Assembly: GCA_949287505.1 (NCBI GenBank)
Contig: CASEGX010000017.1
Span: 1-64,000, forward strand
Direction: 5' to 3'
From: an uncultured Spirochaetales bacterium
Lineage (GTDB): Bacteria; Spirochaetota; Spirochaetia; Sphaerochaetales; Sphaerochaetaceae
DNA: 64,000 nucleotides
The notes under the pieces are model-generated. The model had not been told where the DNA came from and did no database searches. It saw only the letters and a list, made by a program, of their open reading frames with translations. A program made the translations under genes and the position numbers. This document shows, one piece after another, positions 5,709 to 18,248 of this stretch; the first letter of the stretch is position 1; each line of letters opens with the position of its first letter.

Positions 5709-6563
5709 ATGGCAAGTGACAAACCTGTAGATAAGAGAACAATTGAGCTCATCATGAATCTGCGTCTGGTTGATGATCTTTGTTTCAGCTGCGCATTCGA
5801 AGACAACCTTGAAGGTGTCGAATTCATGGTACGCACGATTCTTTCTCGCGATGATATCACAATAGTGAATGCGAAGACGCAGAAGAAGATTCCGAATATA
5901 CTTGGGCATTCTGTCATCTTCGATCTGCTGGCAGTCGAAAGTTCCGGTGACATCATCAATATTGAGATGCAACTGTACACCGGATGCAAGGAGGAACTTG
6001 TTCCCCGCATGGAATTCTATGCCTCCGCCGCCTATCTGCGTTTTCTTGGAAAAGGAGAAACGTATGCAAATGCAAGACGCGTATATACGATATTCATCAT
6101 TGATTATGATTTTGGAGGCATGAACAGACCTGTATATATTTACAGTCGGAAAGATCAGTATGGAGCTGCGCTCAATGGTAACATGATCACTCTTACGGTG
6201 GCAAATTCTTCGTATCGTGATACGATAGAGACGGAGATAAGCAAGCTGTATAGTGATCTTCACGAGAAAGAGATAAGCCGAATGAAGTGTCCTGTGATGA
6301 GGAAAAGTCTTGAGAATGTGAAAGGGGGAGAGATTATGGAAGCAAAAGCCTATCGTATCATGGATCAGCTTAGGGAAGAATTCCTTAACGAAGGTCTTGA
6401 AACAGGGCGTAGGGAAGGCCTGATGGAAGGTCGCAGAAAGAGTTCTGAACAGATTGCTGAGAGGATGCTGAAAACGGGAGAATTCCAGATAGAACAGATT
6501 GCTTCTCTTACAGGTCTGTCTGTTTCCGATGTGAATGCGATAGCTTCAAGGCTCGGCAGGTGA
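5709..6563 (+). CDS. Rpn family PD-(D/E)XK nuclease (putative transposase-like)
   Basis: A 284-residue protein of the Rpn/transposase-31 family, whose characterised E. coli members are DNA endonucleases that promote RecA-independent recombination. The nuclease core shows an acidic residue in SVIFDLLAVES followed by NIEMQLY, the E-x-Q form of the PD-(D/E)XK site. The C-terminus is a charged helix (EGLETGRREGLMEGRR) and a small helical module ending in ASRLGR, typical of the family. GAGGAG (5697-5702) sits 6 bases before the ATG at 5709, which decides the start over longer upstream options. It stands alone after a terminator. No terminal inverted repeats were seen, so it is a resident gene rather than an intact mobile element. 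Confidence 0.88.
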   Translation: MASDKPVDKRTIELIMNLRLVDDLCFSCAFEDNLEGVEFMVRTILSRDDITIVNAKTQKKIPNILGHSVIFDLLAVESSGDIINIEMQLYTGCKEELVPRMEFYASAAYLRFLGKGETYANARRVYTIFIIDYDFGGMNRPVYIYSRKDQYGAALNGNMITLTVANSSYRDTIETEISKLYSDLHEKEISRMKCPVMRKSLENVKGGEIMEAKAYRIMDQLREEFLNEGLETGRREGLMEGRRKSSEQIAERMLKTGEFQIEQIASLTGLSVSDVNAIASRLGR

Positions 6564-6653: not shown

Positions 6654-7176
6654 GTGAAAAGAACAGTTTTTGCACTTGTTGTGCTCTCTCTTATTGCAGT
6701 TCTTATAGCAGGCTGCAGTCCGGATGTCGGAACAGGTGATTCCGGCAATGATAATACCCCCCCCCGTTGAGGAAAATCCAGAAGTAGATCTTCCTTCCGG
6801 CGCACCTGAGCTGGCAGGTACTTTTGAAGAGTATTGCAATCTGGCTGCTCCTGATATGGATGAAAACACTGTGGCAGGTTGGCTTATGTACATGGTCTGT
6901 GCTATTGGACAGCAGGAGGCACATGAAGATCCGATTGGTACGACAACGGAGAAAACCTACATAATTGACGGTGATTCCATTCCTGAAGCCGGAGCTAGTT
7001 ACTGGGGCTCTTTCACTATGGACATAACGGAAAATAAAATGTCTGCAAGTGGACGGCTGTCATTAATGGATAGATTCGTATTCGATATCAGTGGCTATAT
7101 GACAGAGGTTGACGGAATCATTGAAATCAATGGACAGGAATACAGTTTCCTGACTCCTTCCCTCGGCATAGACTGA
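6654..7176 (+). CDS. Phase-variable small lipoprotein A (OFF as assembled)
   Basis: The GTG at 6654 with GGAGG 8 bases upstream starts a lipoprotein signal peptide (KRTVFALVVLSLI..LIAGC), followed by SPDVGTGDSGNDN and a run of nine C bases (6757-6765). With C9 the frame stops at TGA 6768-6770. With C8 (or C11) it continues without a stop to 7176, giving a 173-residue protein with an acidic linker (EENPEVDLPSG) and a beta-rich domain ending TPSLGID. The intact downstream frame argues for a switchable gene rather than a decayed one. The function is unknown; a surface lipoprotein is inferred. Its 5' part is nearly identical to that of the gene at 7299. Confidence 0.75.
6757..6765 (+). repeat. 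Poly-C tract, C9
   Basis: Nine C bases between ATA and GTTGAGG, just after the lipoprotein Cys codon of gene A. The reading frame is closed with nine and open with eight or eleven. Confidence 0.9.
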
Positions 7177-7181
7177 TTTTC

Positions 7182-7217
7182 ATACCCTGCTCATAATTCC
7201 TTTGGCAGGGTATTCTT
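7182..7217 (+). terminator. Terminator-like hairpin after lipoprotein A
   Basis: A 9-bp stem, ATACCCTGC (7182-7190) with GCAGGGTAT (7205-7213), a 14-base loop and a short TCTT tail. Confidence 0.55.
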
Positions 7218-7298
7218 CAATGAATTCTGCTTATAATGTGAAAACTGCTTCTTTTCATGGTATGCTTTCTTAGATATTATCTTTTCAAGAGGTTAAAT

Positions 7299-7783
7299 AT
7301 GAAAAGAGCAGTTTATGCACTTGTTGTGCTCTCTCTTATTGCAGCTCTTCTAGCAAGCTGCAGTCCGGATGTCGGAACAGGTGATTCCGGCAATGATAAC
7401 CCCCCCCCGTTGATGATCCTGTAACGGTTCCTGTAGAGGAAGCAACAAATGCTGAAAAACAGCTGGTTGCGACGGCTGTTGTGAAGGTCTTCTCGACTTA
7501 CTTTAGCATTTTTTATTGGGGTGGGGATGTCGATGTGGATGAGCCATATTCACAGGGCGGAGTTTCCGGCCAAGTAGTGCTTGACGGATACATCAACCCG
7601 AGTTCATTTGCAGGAAGCATCAACGTGAATGCAGATCTTTCTTATGAAGGACATGACATTGACATCACAGGTCTTCTGTATGTTGCGGATTCACAGCCGG
7701 ATTGTTCGGATCTGGAAATCTTCATAGATGGAAAAACAGTCAGTGGTGAAGAGCTTAATCAGCTTGTGAGCCGTTATTTCTGA
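7299..7783 (+). CDS. Phase-variable small lipoprotein B (OFF as assembled)
   Basis: The ATG at 7299 has AGAGG 6 bases upstream. The signal peptide (KRAVYALVVLSLI..LLASC) and SPDVGTGDSGNDN are encoded by DNA matching gene A at 94 of 99 bases. A C9 tract (7400-7408) follows. As assembled the frame ends at TAA 7422-7424. With C10 (or C7) it opens into VDDPVTVPVEEATNAEKQ and on to 7783, a 161-residue lipoprotein. The mature domain differs from that of A and includes GVSGQVVLDGY, which resembles the lipoprotein at 1-617. The function is unknown. A strong terminator follows at 7796. Confidence 0.75.
7400..7408 (+). repeat. Poly-C tract, C9
   Basis: Nine C bases between GATAA and GTTGATG in gene B, at the same place relative to the signal peptide as in gene A. 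The frame is open with ten or seven. Confidence 0.9.
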
Positions 7784-7795
7784 TTGTCCTAAGAG

Positions 7796-7826
7796 TGGGG
7801 GATGAGTCCACATCCCCCATCGTTTT
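7796..7826 (+). terminator. Intrinsic terminator between convergent genes
   Basis: Stem TGGGGGATG (7796-7804) with CATCCCCCA (7811-7819), a 6-base loop, then TCGTTTT. It sits between lipoprotein B and the convergent oxidoreductase and may serve both. Confidence 0.8.
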
Positions 7827-17004: not shown

Positions 17005-18248
17005 ATGAAAAACAGAAATACCCCCCCCGTTGGAAGTCCAGGCTCATTGTTTTCCTGATTCCTGTTCTTCTTCTCGTATCATGCCATGATTACAGCTTCT
17101 ATGAAGATTTCTTTGCCGGCCATTTCCCTGGAGAGAAGGACAGGGTAGTCTTTATCAGCGGGCCCGATGCTGTTGATATCAGGACAGGATCTGTTGCAGA
17201 CACAGTCTATACGCTTGTTTACTCTGACGGAGATGAAGTGGAGATGACACTTGCAGAACTTGTTCCAGAGCTTGATACGTCTTCTCCGGGAGTGAAGAGC
17301 GTGAGCATCAGAGAGGGAGGTGCATCGCTTGATGTCGCGGTCTATGTTTATGATCATACACTCTCTGAGATCACATCAATAATGAGAGAGTCCATTGAGA
17401 GTGAAATGGCGAAACTTCTGACAGAGGGTTCTCCGGATTTAAGTATTCTCAATGACATATGCTCCGGTCTTTACATCCTTCTTGACCAGGAAGGTCTTTC
17501 GGATGGACCTGTATCAATACAGACAAGTCAGACGATCGATGACGACGATAATCCGATGATTCCTCCAGAGGTTCAATACGAATTCAAACCTGTATGGGAG
17601 AACAACACGTTCAGAGGCTCTTCAGATAGAATTGAGCTTCTGATGAATGGAAGCAATAAAAATGCGTGGGAATCCTTCATTACAGTTGATGCCTCTTGCA
17701 TTGTCCTCGATAACATTGTCGGCCGCCTTACGAAACTGAATCAGTCTGCGGGTCTTCCTGTTGTGAATGGATTCCAGATCAATGGTTCTGATGTTGAATT
17801 CCGCGATTCCCTCATCTCATCATCTGTAGAATACGGAGGAGAGACCATCGGTATCTCCATGGAAGGGAAGGATACTCTCATTTCCAATGTCCGTATCTCC
17901 GGATTCGATACATCTCTCAATATCTACGAGAATGCTTCGGGCCGCATTGAGAATTCCAGCTTCGATTCTCCTGTTGTCGTAAGGGCAGTGTTCTCTGTTC
18001 CAGATGTCTCGATTTCAGGCTGTACTTCGCGTTCAGAAAGCTCCAATCCTGATGTCGTTCTTCTTGTGTCTGATTCCACCTTGAGTGAAGCTGAGGACTG
18101 GGCGGAGGAGCAGAAGGTCAGAAATCCGTCACTTGTCTTCGGATACCAGGAAGTCGAAGAGGAGGACGTGGAGCTTGGCATTGATGCCAGCATCATAAAG
18201 AATTGGGAAGAGGTTGTTGTCATGGACATTGATGCGACACTTTCCTGA
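17005..18248 (+). CDS. Phase-variable beta-helix-like lipoprotein C (OFF as assembled)
   Basis: The ATG at 17005 has AGAGGAGG 4 bases upstream. It reads MKNRN and then a C8 tract (17021-17028); the frame ends at TGA 17056. With nine C bases it reads MKNRNTPPRWKSRLIVFLI and on through a lipobox LLVSC to 18248, 414 residues. The signal peptide itself lies in the shifted frame, so only the C9 (or C6) form can be exported. The mature part has repeated short beta-strand turns (ISMEGKDTLISNVRISG, SGRIENSSFDSPVV) suggesting a right-handed beta-helix. The function is unknown. It is followed by the pyr leader region. Confidence 0.75.
17021..17028 (+). repeat. Poly-C tract, C8
   Basis: Eight C bases between AAATA and GTTGGAAG, in the sixth to eighth codons of lipoprotein C. 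The frame opens with nine. The CCC-run-GTTG context is shared with the tracts at 6757 and 7400. Confidence 0.9.

Follow-up and report, generated by a model that had tools for sequence, protein, structure and literature searches.

The promoter spacer of the Vlp lipoprotein genes of Mycoplasma hyorhinis holds a homopolymer. Indels between the −35 and −10 boxes switch transcription of these genes (PMC2268961), and the Vlp lipoproteins have a common signal motif (PMC12815946). Poly-G promoters were also described for tprE/G/J, tprL and tp0126 of the spirochaete Treponema pallidum, with tract lengths from 7 to 11 for tprL; the tract of tp0126 is located between −35 and −10, with best function at a spacing of 17 nt (PMC7864442). 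According to a citation in the same paper, a poly-G spacer between −35 and −10 sets the transcription of porA in Neisseria meningitidis (cited in PMC7864442). The poly-G tracts of Campylobacter show a length maximum at 9, followed by 10, and in a large set of isolates the ON fraction was near the neutral prediction (PMC6321876). What is known of large repertoires of genes that are phase-variable due to repeats comes mainly from pathogens, and the question whether this is only a bias of the databases was raised in a recent review (PMC11868660). Our literature search found no paper on phase variation in the uncultured gut spirochaete genus considered here.

Two tandem lipoprotein genes (A and B) on the 64,000 nt stretch of DNA that we analysed (the window) are very probably contingency genes for surface lipoproteins that are switched by slippage, and belong to a two-layer switch system found throughout the genus. 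Slipped-strand phase variation is a known kind of regulation, well known elsewhere; the genus-wide lipoprotein repertoire and a flank of the type Gn-TA at its tracts appear to be new. Like Vlp, the system comprises a family of surface lipoproteins in which a common 5′ region with switch and signal peptide precedes divergent mature parts. The mature parts of Vlp are repeat regions, while the genus has diverse domains, G/C tracts and an additional layer of coding tracts. The host of Vlp, a Mycoplasma, is unrelated to this spirochaete genus, and the likeness concerns the modular arrangement, with no claim to Vlp membership. T. pallidum shares with the genus that it is a spirochaete with poly-G promoters of varying length, but its targets are putative outer-membrane proteins, whereas the promoter targets in the genus are nearly all lipoproteins; a reused cassette of promoter plus signal peptide was not found for T. 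pallidum in our literature search. PorA is encoded by a single porin gene, in contrast to a family with a common cassette. Campylobacter has the same most frequent tract length of 9, but its tracts are for the most part coding, flagellin modification is one of the largest groups, and there is no lipoprotein cassette.

The window comes from contig C17 in a MAG of 2.29 Mb (122 contigs), and the named members of the genus are Candidatus Ornithospirochaeta. The estimated contamination of this MAG is 6.9%, but the tract pattern was seen again in dozens of independent assemblies. A preliminary description of the window had reported two tandem genes with a nearly identical 5′ part that ends in nine C, both of them OFF. 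Both C9 tracts are located where it had placed them (Table 1), and as assembled the genes are indeed out of frame, with stops after 38 codons (A) and 41 codons (B). Each gene has a single long open continuation, 136 codons in A and 124 codons in B, which match the opening lengths given before (C8 or C11 for A, C7 or C10 for B). Near-identity from the second codon on was also seen, although the count was 93 of 98 bases and not 94 of 99. The sequence directly upstream of the tract is GATAATA in A and GATAA in B. Downstream of the tract both genes continue with GTTGA, and past this point ungapped identity is 33%, which equals the baseline of 33% and agrees with the complete divergence noted earlier. 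A homopolymer that sets the frame in the 5′ part of the open reading frame, as found here, characterizes the translational type of slipped-strand phase variation.

Table 1. Positions of the lipoprotein genes, their tracts and neighbouring features in the window
Feature	Position	Strand	Remarks
Recombination-promoting nuclease family gene (Rpn/PDDEXK_2)	5709–6563	+	Neighbour of A; absent at the syntenic locus of genome G036
Gene A: start (GTG), signal peptide, lipobox LIAGC, linker SPDVGTGDSGNDN (shared 5′ cassette)	6654–6756	+	93/98 bases as in B
Gene A: C9 tract	6757–6765	+	Not in frame as assembled; open if the length is 2 mod 3
Gene A: mature domain, 136 codons and stop, no known family	6766–7176	+	Homologues found in five further species of the genus
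Hairpin between A and B, possible transcript end	7182–7213	+	−15.9 kcal/mol, z −2.7; T tail not clear
Gene B: start (ATG), signal peptide, lipobox LLASC, linker (second cassette copy)	7299–7399	+	
Gene B: C9 tract	7400–7408	+	Not in frame as assembled; open if the length is 1 mod 3
Gene B: mature domain, 124 codons and stop, no known family	7409–7783	+	
Terminator-like hairpin downstream of B	7795–7820	+	
Third gene: start and first codons (MKNRN), upstream of the signal peptide	17005–17020	+	
Third gene: C8 tract	17021–17028	+	Not in frame as assembled; open if the length is 0 mod 3
Third gene: signal peptide, lipobox LLVSC, mature part	17029–18248	+	405 codons in the open frame

The preliminary description was right on these two tracts but missed a third one, a C8 within another lipoprotein gene, which precedes the signal peptide and also leaves the gene off as assembled. 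No other homopolymers of at least 8 are present in the 64 kb window. A first-order Markov model of the window predicts 0.125 G/C runs of at least 9 per 64 kb, and two such runs occurred in none of 200 simulations. All three tracts are directly followed by GTTG, and the motif CCCCCGTTG, which is expected 0.26 times in the window, was found at exactly the three tract sites.

The proteins encoded downstream of the A and B tracts have homologues in sister species (A: 41% identity, E 2.8e-17; B: 44% identity, E 3.7e-26), and therefore represent real coding sequence. The orthologue of A in G036 (L093) is located downstream of the same aminotransferase, has a tract at the matching site, which is C9 as in A and B, and is out of frame. 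A homologue of A in G042 is intact, has no tract, and adjoins the same oxidoreductase as in the window. A paralogue in G010 has a G9 directly downstream of the lipobox and is out of frame; a relative of this paralogue in G014 is intact and without tract. The homologues of B in G028 and G036 lack a tract, and their signal peptides differ from that of B. No match above the curated cut-off was obtained for A, B or the third gene in Pfam and NCBIfam. Structure predictions of low confidence suggest helix and antiparallel strands for both A and B, in the order helix, strands, helix for the mature domain of B, and a fold search with the B model gave no usable match (best E 0.54). A profile-profile comparison of A and B matched only the signal peptides and found no distant homology of the mature domains. 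The Rpn gene upstream of A, one of only three Rpn-type genes in this genome, was considered as linked to the tracts and rejected, because the syntenic locus of G036 has the tract without the Rpn gene.

Coding tracts were found in 21 lipoprotein genes of the genus, upstream of the signal peptide, within it, or just downstream of the lipobox. Four of these tracts were in frame and 17 out of frame, which is compatible with the one third that a random phase would give (P 0.12). In G012, the two genes of a second tandem pair differ in state, one being ON with C9 and the other OFF with C8. The fact that both A and B are out of frame as assembled would also be expected for decaying pseudogenes with one frameshift each, in which the indel merely fell in the tract. 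We consider this very improbable, since the sole defect of A, B and the third gene is exactly at the tract, since homologues are conserved in other species, one of them with the same tract, and since the on/off ratio in the genus fits a random phase.

The pair of A and B was found to be real but not isolated; it is the coding-tract corner of a genus-wide repertoire. The genome harbouring the window has 25 G/C runs of at least 8 (six of length 8, 16 of length 9, three of length 10), and 11 of them separate a TTGACA-like box from TAGNCT or a close variant of it, with a lipoprotein start a few tens of bases downstream. By sequence match, many sites in the genus follow the pattern TTGACA-N7-ACC-G8–12-TAGNNT, with the tract inside a putative −35/−10 spacer; the sixth base of TAGNNT is T in 69 of 74 sites. 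The strict pattern was detected at 86 sites in 25 of the 48 species-level genomes that represent the genus in our collection, while the reversed pattern used as control gave none. When applied to a named collection of about 85,000 species, 77 of the 80 records among the matches listed were from these spirochaetes (Candidatus Ornithospirochaeta and uncultured Spirochaetaceae/Spirochaetales). Ten of the 78 spirochaete sites in the matches listed fall at the end of a contig; of the 68 assessable sites, 66 lead directly into a lipoprotein gene. With a looser pattern, sites were found in three further genera of the family, one of which has only one. Genomes outside the genus with the poly-G promoter pattern include G125 (genus g21) and several of genus g2; in g2 the flanks differ. 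The tract between the two boxes is a feature of the wider system and not of A and B. A G9 tract results in the usual spacer of 19 nt, and a spacer of 17 nt would need G7. By analogy to tp0126 and porA (PMC7864442), tract length may change promoter activity in the genus. In one further case (L051, contig C117 of the same genome, around 3055) a G9 is located about 60 bases upstream of a gene for a protein resembling fimbrial-type chaperones, and the −35 box is not clear.

The number of G/C tracts of at least 8 is some 7 to 30 per genome in the genus, many of them tied to lipoproteins, and 9 is the most frequent length. Thirteen Ornithospirochaeta genomes together have 61 runs of exactly 7 and 233 runs of at least 8. 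In the background, given by eight family members without promoter site, the relation is the opposite (528 versus 171), which means that the genus has an over-representation of long runs compared with short ones. A plain count of runs of at least 8 was rejected as evidence, because relatives without promoter sites have as many; the genus differs from them only in length distribution, flanks and placement of the runs.

Within a genome, the cassettes are homogenised from the −35 box as far as the lipobox, while the DNA upstream of this segment is mostly unrelated. We compared 12 pairs of cassettes from the same genome that are 92–99% identical over about 130 bases, and the number of G differs in 10 of them; lengths in near-identical copies range from 8 to 12. 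The mature lipoproteins behind such 92–99% identical promoter-type cassettes are only 22–40% identical. For example, L046 and L048 of the genome harbouring the window share 97% identity in the cassette segment versus 24–29% in the mature protein. A and B are the coding-tract version of the same arrangement. The view of a reusable cassette for export and switching, taken in the preliminary description, is strengthened by these promoter cassettes in front of unlike lipoproteins and by the B homologues, which lack the tract and differ in their signal peptides. No additional copies of the A/B cassette were found in the same genome, which was searched piecewise, and the cassette was not found in viral contigs. 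The simplest history would be that the 5′ end of A is native and that a tract-bearing copy of it (signal peptide, linker and tract) was most likely placed in front of an unrelated lipoprotein domain, giving rise to B. Another cassette family was observed at assembly breaks: three contig ends of G006 (L189, L193 and L203 on C3, C6 and C29) have near-identical 5′ parts up to a G9, with the common 5′ peptide MSTFRGLVQ, and then differ.

The C9 of the orthologue, the length differences between near-identical cassettes, the fraction of in-frame genes at chance level and the excess of long runs in the genus make slipped-strand phase variation, as originally suggested, the best reading. Replication slippage on the C9 would add or remove single C residues. 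At one length in three, signal peptide and lipobox would be in frame with the mature domain (ON), while the other lengths would yield only a stub of about 40 residues (OFF). Since the ON lengths of A and B differ, both genes should switch independently. The genus would have two kinds of switches. One is poly-G in the spacer between −35 and −10, whose length should alter promoter strength; the other is poly-G/C close to the 5′ end of a coding sequence. Together, the ON and OFF states would diversify the cell surface across the gut population, which presupposes that the lipoproteins are displayed at the surface; such a switch set should let a population vary its coat, which may be of benefit in the host. 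Dozens of near-identical switches also provide a natural set for measuring effects of spacer length and reading frame on expression.

Programmed frameshifting or transcriptional slippage at the tract would likewise keep the downstream frame under selection, and would lead to a constant low level of full-length protein without heritable switching. It is very unlikely to account for our data, as it explains neither the poly-G in promoter spacers, nor the varying lengths of near-identical copies, nor the finding that, depending on the gene, the tract precedes the signal peptide, lies inside it or follows it. Homopolymers are prone to error on some sequencing platforms, and the genome is a MAG, but it is hardly credible that the tract lengths are assembly or sequencing errors in genes that are truly in frame, since in-frame and out-of-frame lengths occur across many independent assemblies from several projects, and the pattern is absent from the runs of 7 and 8 in relatives.

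The tracts of the system have a characteristic flank. On the G strand, T directly follows 129 of 150 runs of at least 8 (86%), versus 9 of 61 runs of 7 in the same genus (15%) and 22 of 103 among the runs listed for five relatives without the system (21%; Fisher P < 1e-20 for both comparisons). The base after this T is usually A. In the promoter sites this TA is the start of the −10 box, but it also flanks 16 of the 21 coding lipoprotein tracts, on either sense strand, which suggests a cause at the DNA level. In the window, TA is located at 6755–6756 and 17019–17020, directly before the C runs of A and of the third gene. One might speculate that the flank, together with the sharply bounded homogenised cassettes, reflects a dedicated process that copies or maintains the switch modules, so that the tracts would not simply be slippage sites of separate origin. 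New phase-variable lipoproteins would then be built by joining an existing switch and signal peptide to new mature domains, although we regard this as rather unlikely.

Tracts were also observed in genes with other functions. In G001 (L181, contig C13, minus strand), a G8 around 5975 of the reverse strand separates the specificity domains of a type I restriction specificity subunit with Methylase_S on both sides, which is out of frame there; this is likely a phase-variable restriction system. A restriction enzyme of G006 with Mrr-like nuclease and ResIII helicase (L185, contig C1, 817–3000) has a C9 in its coding sequence, in frame as assembled. Two tandem genes for phage baseplate proteins similar to Gp10 in the genome harbouring the window (L040, contig C61, 2554–3222 and 3809–4492, minus strand) contain tracts of G10 and G9 close to the start. 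Both genes are in frame and possibly form a phase-variable tail-tip pair of a prophage.
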